Positions 1,213 to 49,937 of a stretch of 64,000 bases of DNA are shown here, one piece after another. The position numbers and the translations under genes are program-made. Source of the DNA: a virus; IMG/VR virus record IMGVR_UViG_3300050821_003228, positions 1 through 64,000 of that record; one strand, written 5' to 3'. How positions within the stretch are numbered: the stretch's first letter is position 1; each line of letters starts with the position of its first letter. The notes beneath the pieces are model-generated. The model searched no databases. It was not told the origin of the DNA and saw nothing but the letters and a program-made list of their open reading frames with translations.

Positions 1213-2389
1213 GGCGAACCTGATTCCATTGATCTTCCGTCATCCCCTGTCTAATGACCATTAATTCGACTTGCGCCTGTGGGATGCCAGCGGAAAGTAG
1301 AGTGTCGCCTGTGTACGATGCGCGAGGAGTAACAAGGATTTTCAATCCTAGACTCTTCACCTTATGCCGGATGGCGATAACGCGATTAGCCCATTCCTGA
1401 TTAACACAAAGGGAACGCTCAAGGGATTCATCATACGGCCAATCAAGCCAAACGAAACGGGAGAGTGTAGCAGCATCAAGCTTCACACGTCCGACATAAT
1501 CAGATGTTCCACCTAATCCAAACGTGTTAGCAGCCGCAAGAATGATGCAATCACGGTCCCGTTTGATAACGCCATCTGGGAAAGCGCAATGCCCGTTTGC
1601 TAGTGCCGCATTGAATGACAATAGAGCATTCGCGCTAGAGCCGTCTACTTCATCTAGCAGAAAAATCCCACCATTCTCGTATGCTTCCCTAAATGCCGTT
1701 CGGACTAATCGCCCGTTTGCATCCATGTAGCCTAGCAGGGAGTAAGGCTCTGCAATCGCACCGCTGAAGTAAAACTTTAGCCCTAACGCCTCTGCTACCT
1801 GTTCCGCTGCTTTCGTTTTCCCACTGCCAGCAGGGCCGATAAGCCAAACGTTGATAGGTGTAGTGCTCCCAGAATGCGCGGCACAAAGTTTTAGCAGCAT
1901 ATCGAACTGCGCGTGAACCTTACCGATGTTTCGAGTCATACTCTCGGTATCAGTCTTGACAGTTACTTCTAGCTCACGCGGAAGAGTCAATTGACTCAAT
2001 TCAGCTTGAATTGAATCAGAGACTAACTTTTTAACATCATTAAGGTTCGCCTTGACATCAAGCTTTGTCTCAATCAAGGGAAGCAATTCTCCCGCGAATA
2101 GCTCCATTAAAGCAGATGCGTTAGACGCGGGTTTCACTGCCATAGCGTTAACTGTTACAGATTCGGGCGATACCGCGATTGCCTTTGATTCTTGAATATG
2201 CTCGCTATTCGCGTTAGCATTGATAGTTGCGTTAATGTCAGTGGGAATGTGAGGATTGGCCCAGACGTTATTACAGTCTTGGTGCCAAACTTTCTTGATT
2301 CCGCGCCTTGTCCAATTGATATATTGTCCCGGTTCAATCGGTTTCGCGCAATTACCACAGGTTGAGCGATACTTACTAGGGAATGACAC
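1205..2389 (-). CDS. MoxR-type AAA+ ATPase with N-terminal zinc ribbon
   Basis: 394 aa. Residues 11-39 carry CGNC and HQDC, a likely zinc-binding ribbon. A low-complexity linker leads to the ATPase: Walker A GPAGSGKT at about 185-192, Walker B GIFLLDEVDG at about 241-250, and sensor-1 Asn in AAANTFG near 288. This is the AAA_5/MoxR class, which remodels partner proteins, usually with a VWA-like partner encoded next door, here the following gene. The start is GTG, supported by GGAGG five bases upstream; an ATG two bases further up is out of frame. Transcribed from the minus promoter at 2424-2451. Confidence 0.85.
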   Translation of the reverse strand: MSFPSKYRSTCGNCAKPIEPGQYINWTRRGIKKVWHQDCNNVWANPHIPTDINATINANANSEHIQESKAIAVSPESVTVNAMAVKPASNASALMELFAGELLPLIETKLDVKANLNDVKKLVSDSIQAELSQLTLPRELEVTVKTDTESMTRNIGKVHAQFDMLLKLCAAHSGSTTPINVWLIGPAGSGKTKAAEQVAEALGLKFYFSGAIAEPYSLLGYMDANGRLVRTAFREAYENGGIFLLDEVDGSSANALLSFNAALANGHCAFPDGVIKRDRDCIILAAANTFGLGGTSDYVGRVKLDAATLSRFVWLDWPYDESLERSLCVNQEWANRVIAIRHKVKSLGLKILVTPRASYTGDTLLSAGIPQAQVELMVIRQGMTEDQWNQVRHV

Positions 2390-3653: not shown

Positions 3654-3995
3654 ATGGATAAAATCGTTTCAGAACGTTATTTATTAAACTCAGGATGGAA
3701 AAAAGATGCCTGTGGTTGGTGGATTTCCCCGTTTGGTTATGGTCTAAACGAAGCAATAGAATTACATAAGAATGCTTCTGAGTCTACCGCCCGAGCTATG
3801 GAAAAAGAATGCCCGGATTTGATACCACGTTGGCTAAACCAAGAACGTAAAATAAATGTAACAAATACAAAAAACTGGATCAATGCATTTAAAATGCCAG
3901 ACGGAACTATTCACCTTGTTTGTGGATTATGTATGGCGGTCGATAAGGCATTAACTAATCCAGACAGTACTTGTACCCACGGCCAGAATTTATGA
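3654..3995 (+). CDS. hypothetical protein, leaderless
   Basis: 113 aa, unrecognised. Trp-rich N-terminus (KDACGWWISPFGYG) and a C-terminal CGLCMA plus CTHG that could bind a metal. It has no Shine-Dalgarno sequence because the ATG lies 6 bases after the -10 box. The stop overlaps the next ATG as ATGA, so it heads a chain of tiny coupled genes. Confidence 0.65.
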   Translation: MDKIVSERYLLNSGWKKDACGWWISPFGYGLNEAIELHKNASESTARAMEKECPDLIPRWLNQERKINVTNTKNWINAFKMPDGTIHLVCGLCMAVDKALTNPDSTCTHGQNL

Positions 3996-5132: not shown

Positions 5133-5227
5133 TACTAGATTTCATGTATTACATCGTGTTACCATTTTTAATCATTACAGCATGGGCTGTTTTTGCATTT
5201 TATCTCATAGACATGTTTAGAAAATAA
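5129..5227 (+). CDS. 32-aa single-span membrane protein
   Basis: MILDFMYYIVLPFLIITAWA then AVFAFYLIDMFRK: one strongly hydrophobic segment with a positive C-terminus. Its ATG overlaps the previous TGA (ATGA). Confidence 0.45.
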   Translation: MILDFMYYIVLPFLIITAWAVFAFYLIDMFRK

Positions 5228-7385: not shown

Positions 7386-7433
7386 CTTTATCCCATTTCT
7401 GTTTTCTAATATGGCCCGGCCCGATTTGTAAAC

Positions 7434-7471
7434 AAAAAAATGCCTCTCTTTCTGTTTCCAAGTAGAGAGGC
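7434..7471 (-). terminator. rho-independent terminator (minus strand)
   Basis: GCCTCTCT (7442-7449) / AGAGAGGC (7464-7471) 8-bp stem; on the minus strand the hairpin is followed by ATTTTTTT. It would end transcripts coming from the 8.2-kb promoter. Confidence 0.75.
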
Positions 7472-7634
7472 GAACTCAGTCCAACCGGAAGCTTACGCCC
7501 CTGCGGCTGCGGACATAGCCAATACATTCGTATTTGCTTTTATTGTTTATATGTTTATTTAACATCGTCCATACTACGATGACACGCAAGTTAAAAATTA
7601 TTCTGATCGCAATCGAAGCCGTTACACGCCCTCA

Positions 7635-7709
7635 ATAAATGATAAACTCGGGTCCAGACCTACATACTAACCTCAGCTAATACAGTCTTAGAGAACATTT
7701 ATCATTTAT
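7635..7709. repeat. 12-bp inverted repeat spanning 75 nt
   Basis: ATAAATGATAAA (7635-7646) and its exact complement TTTATCATTTAT (7698-7709) flank 51 bases. The right arm ends where the minus-strand tRNA-like CCA begins. Confidence 0.4.
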
Positions 7710-7743
7710 GGTGGACGTGACCGGAGTCGAACCGGTTTCTTAC
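7709..7743 (-). pseudogene. tRNA remnant on the minus strand
   Basis: Reading minus: ACCGG-TTCGACT-CCGGT, then CACGTCC-A-CCA, a perfect T arm plus acceptor 3' strand and CCA. I could not find the matching 5' acceptor strand or anticodon arm within 100 bases, so this is probably a decayed tRNA. Confidence 0.4.
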
Positions 7744-7903
7744 AATAGAACAACTAACCTTCAACGTGCATACTCTTTTGGTGGACATGGTAAAGGTTCC
7801 CGACCAATACTCATTAATAAATTATTAACATCAGCAAGTACAGTTATATACTTATTTACACGCAATTTCATCATAACTATTGTCTCTAGGTTTACGACAA
7901 TAA

Positions 7904-44882: not shown

Positions 44883-45122
44883 ATGTGGCGTTCATTTAAG
44901 GTGTTTACTGTAGGCATTTCTTGGTTATTGGCGATGTTGTTTTTCGTCATTTCCCTTTACCTTGGTACACACGGCTTTCTCTTTGCTGGTGGATTGATTT
45001 TATTCTTTGGTGTTGGATTGTGGTGTTTTTCTCGGGCACTTGAACAGGATTTAGTTAGAGAATCGGGCGATAAAGATGATGATGATCAAAATCCTACTAC
45101 AACGATATATAAATTCGCTTGA
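44883..45122 (+). CDS. small membrane protein
   Basis: 79 aa from ATG with AAGGA upstream; two membrane spans (VGISWLLAMLFFVISLYLG and FLFAGGLILFFGVGLWCF) and an acidic tail. Unknown. Confidence 0.55.
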   Translation: MWRSFKVFTVGISWLLAMLFFVISLYLGTHGFLFAGGLILFFGVGLWCFSRALEQDLVRESGDKDDDDQNPTTTIYKFA

Positions 45123-45147
45123 CAATCGGGCGGTAATGGGGTATAAT
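45119..45147 (+). promoter_or_regulatory. consensus promoter of tRNA cluster 2
   Basis: TTGACA (45119-45124), 17-bp spacer, TATAAT (45142-45147). A 7-codon frame follows at the leaderless position, but the real products are the tRNAs from 45185. Confidence 0.8.
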
Positions 45148-46058: not shown

Positions 46059-46211
46059 ATGTTTGATAAAAGTATACAAACTGAATTAGAAGATTTGTGG
46101 AAGAAATTGAATCCATATCCAGAAGGAAGTTACAAATGGTATGGATGGAGTTTAGAAGTAGATTGCGAGAATTATCAATTTGATAACACGGACAGTGAGC
46201 TAGTTAGGTAA
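46059..46211 (+). CDS. 50-aa acidic protein, leaderless
   Basis: MFDKSIQTELEDLWKKLNPY..., acidic and aromatic. Its last 22 bases are the 5' part of tRNA-Phe. Unknown function. Confidence 0.55.
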   Translation: MFDKSIQTELEDLWKKLNPYPEGSYKWYGWSLEVDCENYQFDNTDSELVR

Positions 46212-46265
46212 TAGCGTTCGGTTGAAGCCCGAAAGAACGGGGATCGTTACCTCGACTGTCCACCA
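46190..46265 (+). tRNA. tRNA-Phe(GAA)
   Basis: Acceptor GGACAGT/ACTGTCC, D stem GCTA/TAGC, anticodon TTCGG-TTGAAGC-CCGAA, CCA encoded. Confidence 0.85.
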
Positions 46266-46283: not shown

Positions 46284-46475
46284 TTGCTACAAATTTTAAT
46301 AGTTTTAATTGTTGTAGGCGTTTTGTTGTGGTTAGTTAATACATACATCCCGATGGATGGTAAGATTAAGACGATTTTAAATGTTGTAGTAGTCATCTGT
46401 GTTGTTCTTTGGTTATTGAACGTTTTCGGTGTGCTCGGAATGGATGTGCCCGTTCCGCGTGTTCATCGTTATTAA
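46284..46475 (+). CDS. Thivi_2564-like small membrane protein
   Basis: 63 aa, two membrane spans (LIVLIVVGVLLWLVNTYI and ILNVVVVICVVLWLLNVFGV) around PMDGKIK, matching the small bacterial Thivi_2564 family as I remember it. TTG start with AAAAGGA upstream. Probably host-derived. Confidence 0.65.
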   Translation: MLQILIVLIVVGVLLWLVNTYIPMDGKIKTILNVVVVICVVLWLLNVFGVLGMDVPVPRVHRY

Positions 46476-46477
46476 GG

Positions 46478-46680
46478 TTTTGATGGGAAGTTGGCTTAGA
46501 AGCAGCCATCTTTTAAAGAGTAGCACTGAACGTGGAACCACTTAAAAAATAGGGCACTCAATTTTAAAACCTATTTGATCCTATACAGGCGGTATAGGTT
46601 GAGGACAGTCCCGTATTGAGCGTTTCTCAGGACGGCCATTTGGCCGATAACACTTTTGGCGTAATAGCACACCATCAAAA
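46478..46680 (+). ncRNA. RNA mimicking the 23S rRNA GTPase-associated centre
   Basis: Bases 46490-46510 are identical to the 23S rRNA L11-binding domain hairpin (core GGCTTAGAAGCAGCC), followed by TTTAAAGA (46512-46519); after an insert the second strand GCGTAATAGC (46659-46668) is also identical. A perfect 9-bp stem TTTTGATGG (46478-46486)/CCATCAAAA (46672-46680) closes it, different from the rRNA stem, so pairing is kept while sequence changed. The ~140-nt insert folds into CCTATAC/GTATAGG, CTCAA/TTGAG, GTCC/GGAC and GGCC/GGCC helices. No coding signal. Confidence 0.75.
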
Positions 46681-46687
46681 AGTTTAT

Positions 46688-46775
46688 GCATTGGTTGGGC
46701 TAATGGTAGCCTCGCGCTCTGTAAAAGCGCCTCTCTTAGCGAGAATAGTGAGTTCAATTCTCACCCAATGCACCA
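46688..46775 (+). tRNA. tRNA-Tyr(GTA)
   Basis: Acceptor GCATTGG/CCAATGC, anticodon GCGCT-CTGTAAA-AGCGC, long variable arm as expected for bacterial Tyr, T arm GTGAG/CTCAC, CCA encoded. Confidence 0.9.
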
Positions 46776-46790
46776 TTTTAGGAGGAATGA

Positions 46791-47105
46791 TTGAAAGTAA
46801 AATTTGAACCGGCACCTAATAAAGTCCTTGTACGTGTGGCCGATCCTGTAACTATTACGAAAAACGGAATACATGTTCCAGATTCGGCCCAGATGAGGCC
46901 AATGGAGGGCGTCATAGTTAAAATCGGGCCAAATAGTGATACAGTGGATAAACTGACTAAGGGTGTTGTTCATGTCGAACCTCTTTGGAAAGAGAAGGAT
47001 CACGTTCTATTCGGTAAGTATGACGGTATTGAAATCAGGATAGATGAAGAGGATTTCCTTCTTTTAAATCATGATCAGATTTTAGGTAAAAGGACAGGCA
47101 ATTAG
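46791..47105 (+). CDS. groES: GroES-like co-chaperonin
   Basis: 104 aa, Cpn10 fold: NKVLVRVADPVTITKNGIHV, GVIVKIGP, HVLFGKYDGIEIRIDEEDFL. Caps GroEL to fold phage proteins, probably the capsid or the large tail proteins, with host GroEL. TTG start supported by GGAGG five bases upstream. The stop lies inside tRNA-Gln(CTG). Confidence 0.85.
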   Translation: MKVKFEPAPNKVLVRVADPVTITKNGIHVPDSAQMRPMEGVIVKIGPNSDTVDKLTKGVVHVEPLWKEKDHVLFGKYDGIEIRIDEEDFLLLNHDQILGKRTGN

Positions 47106-47290: not shown

Positions 47291-47353
47291 GACGTGGTGA
47301 AGAGTAGAGTTACTTCTCGATTAGAAAAAACACTCTACTCGTTTGTTCCCGTC
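47291..47353 (+). ncRNA. Y-RNA-like element 1, leader of the Ro mRNA
   Basis: GACG/CGTC lower stem, conserved internal loop TGGTGA on the 5' side and TTTGTTCC on the 3' side, then a perfect 9-bp upper stem GAGTAGAGT/ACTCTACTC, with TACTTC at the start of the apical loop. The same motifs recur in three more elements around the Ro gene. It ends 22 bases before the Ro ATG. Confidence 0.65.
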
Positions 47354-47375
47354 ATTTAATTTTCTCGGAGGAGAT

Positions 47376-48764
47376 ATGTCGTCAGTCAATACAGCTACAA
47401 AGACAGCAAAATATACGCATGAAGGCGCGAAGGCGTCTAATATTACGAAGAAACAAGAGCTTCGCCGTAGTGTTACAGCTTGTATGCTTTGGGAGAACAC
47501 CTTCTATGAAGATGGAAAGGCGATTGCTGACCGTATCAAGGAATTAGTTCATCAGCTTCCCGGCCAATTTGTTTCAGAATTGGCAATTGAAGCGCGTGAG
47601 AAGATGAAACTTCGTCACGTTCCGCTGTTCCTAGTTCGTGAATTGGCCCGTCATCCTAAGAAGGCTGAACGACAGTTTGTATCAGATACATTGGCCCGAG
47701 TAATTCAACGTCCTGATGAATTGACTGAGTATATTGCAATTTATTGGAAAGACGGTAAAGAACCGTTGTCTGCTCAATCCAAACTTGGATTAGCAAAAGC
47801 GTTTCTGAAGTTTAACGAATATAGCTTTGCTAAGTACACCCGTGATGGCGCTGTGAAGCTTCGTGACGCATTGTTCTTATCCCACGCAAAGCCGGGCACG
47901 AAGGAACAAGAGAAACTGTTCAAGAAGATCGTAGATAACACTCTTGTTACTCCTGATACTTGGGAAGTCGCACTTTCAGGTGGGGCCGATAAGAAAGAGA
48001 CGTTTACTCGATTGCTGAAAGAGGGCAAGCTTGGTGCATTGGCTCTATTGCGTAATCTACGTAACATGAGTGAAGCCGGGGTATCAACCGAGTTAGTTAC
48101 AGAGTCATTAGAGAATTTGGATGTCATTCGCGTACTGCCGTTTAGATTTATTTCTGCCGCGAAGTATGCTCCACAACTTGAATCAGTTCTAGAGAAGACA
48201 ATGTTTAAAGCGTTGGAAAGTCATCCTGAATTGCCGGGCAAAACTGTAATGATTGTTGATGTCTCTGGCTCAATGGGCGGCAATGTTTCTGGTAAGTCAG
48301 AAATTGGACGAGTTGATGCTGCTGCATCTTTAGCAATTCTTCTTCGTGAAATTTGTGAAGATTTTTCAATTTATGCAACAGCGGGTAATGATTATAGTCG
48401 TATTCATAAAACGGCATTGATTCCTTCACGTCATGGTTTTGCACTGAAAGATTCAATTTTGAAGTCCAAAAATGAATTGGGTGGTGGGGGAATATTTTTG
48501 AAACAAGTTATGGATTATGTTTATAACTTGGAAAAAAGCAATGATGTCGCTCGTATCATAGTAATTACTGATGAACAAGATTGTGATACTGATCCGGCTA
48601 AATCGCCGTCAAAAGCAAATACGTTTGGTGCTAATAATTATCTGATAAATATAGCTAATGAGAAAAATGGCATTGGCTATGATAAATGGGTTCATATTGA
48701 TGGTTTTTCTGAAGCAGTAATAGATTACATTCAAGCCTTTGAAGATCAAGGCGATGAAGATTAA
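47376..48764 (+). CDS. rsr: Ro60/TROVE-domain protein (Rsr)
   Basis: 462 aa. Residues ~10-280 form the TROVE HEAT-like ring (SVTACMLWENTFYEDG, LRHVPLFLVRELARHP, LGALALLRNLRNMSEAGVST); residues ~288-462 form a VWA-like domain with MIDAS DVSGSMGG (Asp295, Ser297, Ser299). Ro binds Y RNAs on the outside of its ring and misfolded RNAs in the hole, and can direct exonucleases to structured RNA. GGAGGAG precedes this ATG. Y-RNA-like element 1 is its leader and three more lie downstream. Confidence 0.92.
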   Translation: MSSVNTATKTAKYTHEGAKASNITKKQELRRSVTACMLWENTFYEDGKAIADRIKELVHQLPGQFVSELAIEAREKMKLRHVPLFLVRELARHPKKAERQFVSDTLARVIQRPDELTEYIAIYWKDGKEPLSAQSKLGLAKAFLKFNEYSFAKYTRDGAVKLRDALFLSHAKPGTKEQEKLFKKIVDNTLVTPDTWEVALSGGADKKETFTRLLKEGKLGALALLRNLRNMSEAGVSTELVTESLENLDVIRVLPFRFISAAKYAPQLESVLEKTMFKALESHPELPGKTVMIVDVSGSMGGNVSGKSEIGRVDAAASLAILLREICEDFSIYATAGNDYSRIHKTALIPSRHGFALKDSILKSKNELGGGGIFLKQVMDYVYNLEKSNDVARIIVITDEQDCDTDPAKSPSKANTFGANNYLINIANEKNGIGYDKWVHIDGFSEAVIDYIQAFEDQGDED

Positions 48765-49136: not shown

Positions 49137-49937
49137 TTGAGCAAAGTATTGGATGCTGCTACAAAGCTTGTAACTAAAGAGGAAGCTGAAACTGAAAAAT
49201 TATTGAGTGAAGCGGCATTGCGTCGTTTTCGTCTTGAATCGGAGAGAAAGAATGGCCCGAAAGAAGATGAACTGATTCTTGCCCGTCGTCAGGCTGAAGT
49301 TGAAAAAATTAAGAATGAGTCTCAGAAGGCCCACTTTGAAGCGGCCTGTGCGGAATTGATTTTCAATAACGCAAAACGTGAAGAAGATAAGATTCTGACT
49401 GGCGACCGTTATAACAAAGTTTATCGCTTTGTTCATGAAGTTTGTCATGAATCTGTCGCTGACTGTATGATGATTCTTTCTCGTTGGTCGCGTCTTGAGC
49501 CGGAATGTGCGATGGAAATCGTATTCTGTTCGCCCGGTGGAAGCATTATTGACGGTTTCGCTCTTTTCGATTTTATCCAAGATTTGAAAGCAAAGGGCCA
49601 TAAGGTCACTACAAAATCAATCGGTTATGCTGCAAGTATGGCAGGTGTATTGTTACAGGCCGGAAGTGATCGAGTGATGGGCCGTGAATCGTGGCTTTTG
49701 ATTCATGAAGCTTCATTCTTTGCGATGGGTAAAATCGGCGCGGTTGATGATACGGTTGAATGGATCAAAAGGATGTGTGATCGTATTGTAGACATTTTCG
49801 CTGAACGTGCATCCGAGAAAACTGGAAAATCAGTAAAGGCAATTCGGGCAACAATTAAAAAGAATTGGCTTCGTAAAGATTGGTGGCTTTCTGCTGACGA
49901 GGCGCTAGAGTACGGTTTTTGTGATCGTATTAGTTAG
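49137..49937 (+). CDS. ClpP-like serine protease
   Basis: 266 aa. About 95 N-terminal residues are charged coiled coil, then a ClpP/crotonase domain: FCSPGGSIIDGFALFD, GYAASMAGVL with Ser167, LLIHEASF with His190. The Ser-His spacing matches ClpP. Could serve as a head or general protease; location beside Ro and GroES suggests a quality-control function. TTG start with AAAGGATAACAAA upstream. Confidence 0.8.
   Translation: MSKVLDAATKLVTKEEAETEKLLSEAALRRFRLESERKNGPKEDELILARRQAEVEKIKNESQKAHFEAACAELIFNNAKREEDKILTGDRYNKVYRFVHEVCHESVADCMMILSRWSRLEPECAMEIVFCSPGGSIIDGFALFDFIQDLKAKGHKVTTKSIGYAASMAGVLLQAGSDRVMGRESWLLIHEASFFAMGKIGAVDDTVEWIKRMCDRIVDIFAERASEKTGKSVKAIRATIKKNWLRKDWWLSADEALEYGFCDRIS

Follow-up and report, generated by a model that had tools for sequence, protein, structure and literature searches.

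Why should a virus carry, beside its tRNA genes, a short stretch that reads like the GTPase-associated centre (GAC) of 23S rRNA, and is it a stray piece of ribosomal sequence or an RNA with a role of its own? The question is raised by positions 46478 to 46680 of a 64,000-nucleotide (nt) stretch, here called the window, which comprises positions 1 to 64,000 of IMG/VR record IMGVR_UViG_3300050821_003228. The source virus record is 97,817 bp long, and its genes include those for a terminase, a DNA polymerase A, and an SU10-type adaptor. We know of no family that matches a phage RNA rebuilding a ribosomal RNA domain; judged by sequence comparison, the element almost certainly belongs to a real family of functional RNAs with the GAC fold.

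The initial annotation had proposed that two GAC loops are kept here in order inside an enclosing stem of unrelated sequence, and each of these points held. Bases 46490-46510 (GTTGGCTTAGAAGCAGCCATC) are identical to 1059-1079 of Escherichia coli 23S rRNA, in a numbering verified on rrlB. They lead into TTTAAAGA, which ends at 46519 (equivalent to A1088), and, after a gap of 139 nt, GCGTAATAGC follows at 46659-46668 (1091-1100), the order being that of 23S rRNA. The stem, 46478-46486 with 46672-46680 (TTTTGATGG/CCATCAAAA), pairs perfectly over 9 bp, shares 2 of its 18 bases with rrlB, and sits in the exact register of helix 42 (H42; 1047-1055/1104-1112). Across 1055-1104, 45 of 50 bases are identical to rrlB, with mismatches at 1058 and 1080 (a compensated pair), 1089, 1090, and 1101. 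The parts of the element, numbered as in E. coli, are as follows.

46478-46486 (+): 5' strand of the closing helix (1047-1055, H42 register), paired with 46672-46680; the register is common to the 77 regular family members.
46488-46512 (+): H43 hairpin (1057-1081), the L11-binding hairpin in 23S rRNA; identical to E. coli over 46490-46510, with 1057-1081 and 1058-1080 covarying.
46513-46519 (+): junction 1082-1088, where TTTAAAGA ends; it contains A1088 and the lone pair 1082-1086, the latter supported by family pairing counts.
46522-46654 (+): phage-specific third arm of 133 nt between 1090 and 1091; its basal pair i1-e5 is paired in 77/77.
46655-46658 (+): UUUG linker preceding H44; e2-e4 are U in 75 to 76 of 77 members.
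46659-46668 (+): H44 hairpin GCGTAATAGC (1091-1100), identical to E. coli and followed by A1101.
46672-46680 (+): 3' strand of the closing helix (1104-1112), paired with 46478-46486 and covarying in the family.

The window element thus has the H43 core GGCYURGAAGCAGCC, the H44 loop GCGUAAYAGC, an H42 helix in register with 1055-1104, the lone pair 1082-1086, and U1060/A1088. A functional 23S rRNA would be a full large-subunit (LSU) rRNA scoring above the gathering threshold, and the element is neither: the bacterial LSU model (Rfam RF02541) matches 41 nt, 46486-46526, with E=3.3e-5 and 23.3 bits, under the gathering score of 50. When other phages were searched for both loops with variable closing stems, as had been suggested, the loops recurred in order in >100 viral contigs; together with the E value, this recurrence inside varied closing helices excludes a chance resemblance.

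Because a covariance model of the trimmed core found the window copy but misaligned its 3' half, where the long third arm intervenes, we surveyed the family by anchored pattern searches with register-fixed pairing. A scan of IMG/VR for the H43 hairpin gave at least 119 stretches, nearly all with a shared plan of hairpin, GAGU, variable insert, UUUGGCGUAAYAGCACAC, and complementary closing helix; scanned for separately, the phage-type H44 turned up in 107 stretches. Over all sequences gathered, an H43-like hairpin precedes 99 of 110 phage-type H44 matches by no more than 600 nt. The working set holds 92 non-redundant members, 77 of them regular. Copies are present in Xanthomonas phage XacN1, Astolliot, Milchi, UNO-G1W1, Serratia phage BF and its Erwinia relatives, XbC2, Cronobacter phage GAP32, Pectobacterium phage CBB, pf16, ME3, Aeromonas phage 4_4572, and Vibrio phage 2.275.O, and those in public phages are nearly all un-annotated. 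Many carriers are large, tRNA-rich phages.

The phage-type H44 (TTTGGCGTAANAGCACAC) was found in none of 399 bacterial genomes, all of one phylum, and a plasmid search matched the H43 part alone, as true 23S rRNA would be expected to. Within the element, no Rfam model scored above its gathering threshold, either in the window copy or in 12 further members. We found no description of a GAC-type phage RNA in Rfam 15 or in the open-access literature, a scope that takes in neither subscription papers nor preprints, so that an earlier description is possible. Pd_22F (L128) was considered as a member and rejected, its match being true host 23S rRNA. Several phage-labelled records (MW495066.1, L128, and several OR84xxxx) contain bacterial 23S rRNA or a secE-nusG-rplK-rplA cluster, probably by contamination. 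One contig (L046) has tandem GAC-type RNAs, at 5138 and 5456, with a tRNA-Pro between them.

Covariation shows that the fold is maintained. In the regular members, the closing-helix pairs 1055-1104 and 1054-1105 are paired in 77/77 with changing pair types, and the pairs outward to 1047-1112 are paired in 63 to 75 of 77, using all Watson-Crick types. Since candidates were scored partly on closing-helix pairing, the third-arm stem, which played no part in selection, is the weightier evidence: its basal pair i1-e5 is paired in all 77 (GC 56, AT 15, TA 6) and the next pair in 75. The lone pair 1082-1086 is U-A in 40, C-G in 23, and A-U in 6 (69 of 77), compared with U-A in 118 of 118 rRNAs, and H43 pairs 1057-1081 and 1058-1080 also covary. 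Scored on 50 sequences, the structure is paired in 96.6% of cells and its covariation score is 0.717, whereas shuffled sequences give 0.163 and slid partners at most 0.213; none of 500 shuffles reached the observed score. The initial annotation had named a random recent rRNA fragment as the outcome that would undo its proposal, and a conserved, covarying family refutes that alternative. Its identification of a GAC mimic stands; it had missed the third arm, the fixed U1101A, the position in tRNA arrays, and how widespread the family is.

What the family keeps and what it lets go can be compared with rRNA by using 78 distinct hairpins chosen through H44 only and 118 rRNAs chosen without a loop constraint. 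The hairpin search tolerated up to 4 mismatches, so relaxation at the tips is if anything underestimated, and the Fisher p-values are indicative only because the members are related. G1059, U1060, C1079, A1084, A1085, and A1088 are present in all 77 regular members, and G1063, G1071, and C1072 are each retained in 77 of the 78 H44-selected hairpins. The pairs G1062-C1076, G1063-C1075, and G1059-C1079 hardly change, although adjacent helices vary freely, and 1064-1074 becomes A-U in three lineages. Relaxed positions include A1067 (60/78 versus 117/118 in rRNA; p=2e-7), where 23% of the H44-selected hairpins have another base (G in 13, C in 3, U in 2), as well as G1068 (66/78 versus 118/118; p=9e-6), A1069 (71/78 versus 118/118; p=1e-3), and A1070 (64/78 versus 114/118; p=8e-4). 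Most of 83 candidates found without the H44 loop nevertheless have it, and 11 carry A1096G, for which there was no match in 46 rRNA-bearing genomes. A1101 is present in 77 of 77 members where rRNA has U, and A1061 is enriched (24/77 versus 3/118; p=1.6e-8). Draper-laboratory work is said to have found that U1061A stabilises the GAC tertiary fold. Studies of how the isolated domain folds and binds L11 have used the same form (PMC10161774).

The setting of the family is also consistent. In the surroundings of the 92 members we counted 540 tRNA and transfer-messenger RNA (tmRNA) genes, of which 539 share the strand of the RNA, and in the sequence examined a tRNA occurs within 2 kb of 61 members. 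Spacing can be very tight: 27 downstream tRNAs begin at most 20 nt from the closing helix, and 19 upstream tRNAs end at most 8 nt away. Position in the array and shared strand suggest a stable RNA that would be co-transcribed and co-processed with the tRNAs.

We therefore consider what such an RNA might do. The reading that we favor, at a probability of roughly 45%, is that of a free-standing phage RNA that would be made together with the tRNA array and act in trans through host uL11. The RNA would be transcribed within the array and probably excised by tRNA-processing enzymes; it would fold as an autonomous copy of the GAC (H42 base, H43, H44, and lone pair 1082-1086) with the third arm inserted into H44, and would bind host uL11 in trans, mainly through the C-terminal RNA-binding domain of the protein. 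With free L11 held in this way, new or L11-depleted ribosomes would become poor in L11, functions dependent on it, such as RelA/(p)ppGpp activation, would weaken, and factor use could be biased towards phage translation. Binding of uL11 in vivo seems probable by itself. That titration or relocation of L11 is the main role is a more tentative proposal, and it is plausible on these comparisons, though slightly less likely than not, that a widespread class of such uL11-capturing RNAs reprogrammes ribosomes during infection, for example by rendering them RelA-blind or altering their use of release factors.

Two patterns in the alignment point to recognition of the core rather than conservation of the fold alone: the frozen pairs G1062-C1076, G1063-C1075, and G1059-C1079 stand beside varying helices, and the core is retained while the factor-contact tips are relaxed. 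On its own the 58-nt domain, to which L11 binds, still folds (PMC4409310). RelA activation requires L11, and ribosomes without the protein or its N-terminus fail in it (PMC4974054, PMC7058999), so that capture of L11 would damp (p)ppGpp. Among the actions that had been proposed initially (L11 titration, an altered stringent response, drug binding), L11 capture with its consequence for the stringent response appears to fit best. A search with E. coli L11 gave no credible phage uL11; the matches resemble bacterial contaminants, one of them, MaAM05, containing a bacterial secE-nusG-rplK-rplA cluster, and the partner would then be the host protein.

Several points weigh against capture of host uL11. 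The GAC fold itself requires the invariant core residues, so that a scaffold alone could be conserved in much the same way; A1095 is retained with 3 exceptions and the tips are relaxed only in part; and the third arm alters the base of H44 (U1101A and the insertion at 1090/1091). The members are phylogenetically non-independent, and 31 of the 92 have no tRNA within 2 kb in the sequence examined, as is also true of 17 of the 39 that have a 2-kb flank on both sides.

The third arm is where a different explanation finds its support. The GAC fold could have been exapted to hold the variable arm in place through a rigid junction, in which case the arm would act and uL11 would not be the target. Arms do contain recurring modules: GGCACCCCGUAACUGGUAAGGCU occurs in 18 of 92 members (e.g., L012, L008, L070, L135, and L140) with no match in flank controls, 17 of the 18 copies lying at a near-fixed 21 to 23 nt before G1091 (GGUAAGG), and a second module, GCGAAAUGC..UGAUGUG, occurs in 9 of 92. 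Neither module matched E. coli 16S, 23S, or 5S rRNA above shuffled controls. We nonetheless regard a scaffold role as unlikely: arm length runs from 36 to 365 nt, no module is shared by every arm, the GAC is the sole universal part, and the upper H43 pairs are nearly frozen (the A-U change at 1064-1074 excepted) though a scaffold would permit covariation. A compact GAC mimic at about 3700-3790 of one IMG/VR contig (L011) has no third arm at all and is followed by tRNA-like sequence. Some members (L133, L148, L160, and others) have an extra hairpin near 1077-1079.

A second alternative, which we rate lower, is that the RNA lures an enzyme or toxin acting on the GAC or on an L11-free 50S intermediate, such as a host defence nuclease, an RNA methyltransferase, or an assembly factor. 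To our knowledge there is no GAC-targeting defence factor, and the resistance methyltransferases occur in antibiotic producers, both of which count against it. In its favor, a change at 1067 does not prevent good binding of the isolated hairpin by the nosiheptide-resistance methyltransferase (PMC4409310), so an enzyme acting on the GAC could be titrated.

The tips of H43 and H44 bear on the improbable idea of a decoy for the direct users of the GAC (EF-G, EF-Tu, IF2, RF3, and RelA) or a sink for thiopeptides. Both tips and A1095 are mostly kept, and thiostrepton occupies the space bounded by A1067, A1095, and the N-terminal domain of L11 (PMC5960728). Yet A1067, G1068, A1070, and A1096, near-invariant in rRNA, are relaxed here, and since changes at A1067 and A1095 lower thiopeptide binding (PMC5960728), the 23% of hairpins altered at A1067 make either kind of decoy less likely. 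By cryo-electron microscopy the L11 N-terminus touches the A/R tRNA and not RelA (PMC4974054), which also argues against a factor decoy.

A cis-regulatory element for the downstream gene, in the manner of a ribosomal-protein leader, is highly improbable: coding sequences do lie closely downstream in some phages, but the downstream neighbors vary and are often tRNAs, no ribosomal-protein gene occurs in the annotated stretches examined, and no phage uL11 was found. Recent capture of 23S rRNA or an assembly artefact without function can be dismissed, for although a few phage records such as Pd_22F hold true host 23S rRNA, the family has an unrelated, covarying closing helix, a fixed U1101A and third arm in the 77 regular members, same-strand tRNA arrays, and no copy in the 399 bacterial genomes.

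If uL11 capture is correct, the family suggests that phages act on the ribosome by reproducing one of its protein-binding sites in RNA. We know of no earlier natural family of free-standing GAC mimics, and this one lies un-annotated in well-known jumbo phages and in the many viral contigs above. It resembles the bacterial 23S GAC (H42-H44, RF02541) in H43 and H44 sequence, H42 register, G1056.A1103, the lone pair 1082-1086, A1088, and A1095. It differs in being free-standing, with an unrelated and variable closing helix and a 36- to 365-nt arm between 1090 and 1091, in having A1101 in place of U1101 and relaxed A1067, G1068, A1070, and A1096, and in its frequent A1061 and C1082-G1086. The natural A1061 and C1082-G1086 variants offer a separate test of the requirements of the GAC fold and are relevant to thiopeptide antibiotics.

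Other systems share single features with the family. The L10, L20, and S15 leader RNAs mimic rRNA sites and act in cis in host mRNAs; they too are RNA copies of a ribosomal-protein site outside rRNA, whereas the GAC-type RNA is found in arrays of phage tRNA genes without any ribosomal-protein gene, the window having tRNA-Tyr and then GroES downstream. ROOL and GOLLD are likewise ornate non-coding RNAs beside tRNAs in phage genomes, but the GAC-type RNA is far shorter, holds an rRNA domain, and has no model match at gathering thresholds; in L070, a ROOL RNA (1503-2100, minus strand, 337.6 bits) occupies a separate place in the same tRNA array. Phage sets of tRNAs, tmRNA, and ribosomal proteins, found in the same arrays, also serve takeover or support of host translation, but the GAC-type RNA carries an rRNA domain and is neither tRNA nor protein.

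The neighborhood of the element in the window contains the following features.

7402-7801 (-): permuted tmRNA gene (Rfam tmRNA_permuted, 65.1 bits; ARAGORN tag ANTNVLAMSAAAGA).
45119-45147 (+): sigma-70-like promoter TTGACA-17-TATAAT, matching 12/12 consensus positions and preceding the first tRNA of the array; a match only, which says nothing on use.
46190-46265 (+): tRNA-Phe (GAA), by ARAGORN, upstream in the same array.
46284-46475 (+): hydrophobic 63-residue open reading frame ending 2 nt before the RNA.
46688-46775 (+): tRNA-Tyr (GTA), by ARAGORN, 7 nt downstream of the RNA.
46791-47105: GroES gene, after tRNA-Tyr.
47343-48764: gene for a TROVE/vWA (Ro60-like) protein.
49137-49937: ClpP gene.

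The site at 45119-45147 is a possible promoter of the tRNA-array unit, and the 63-residue frame at 46284-46475 has no Pfam match. Genes for TROVE/vWA, GroES, and ClpP proteins lie close to the GAC-type RNA and the tRNAs, and as Ro60-type proteins bind structured RNAs, a tie between the Ro60-like protein and the GAC-type RNA is conceivable. tRNAs with a CUA anticodon, of the amber suppressor type, occur in the arrays of L015, L022, L036, L050, and L104. Loss of L11 may also affect release-factor use, and with several GAC-RNA phages encoding such tRNAs, that effect could matter.

Finally, L204 has at 1975-2370 a permuted tmRNA with a phage-type H44 (CCCCTTTGGCGTAATAGCACAC) directly after it and TTTAATGAGT between the tmRNA halves; no H43 was found there, and the element is perhaps a fused or rearranged GAC RNA.
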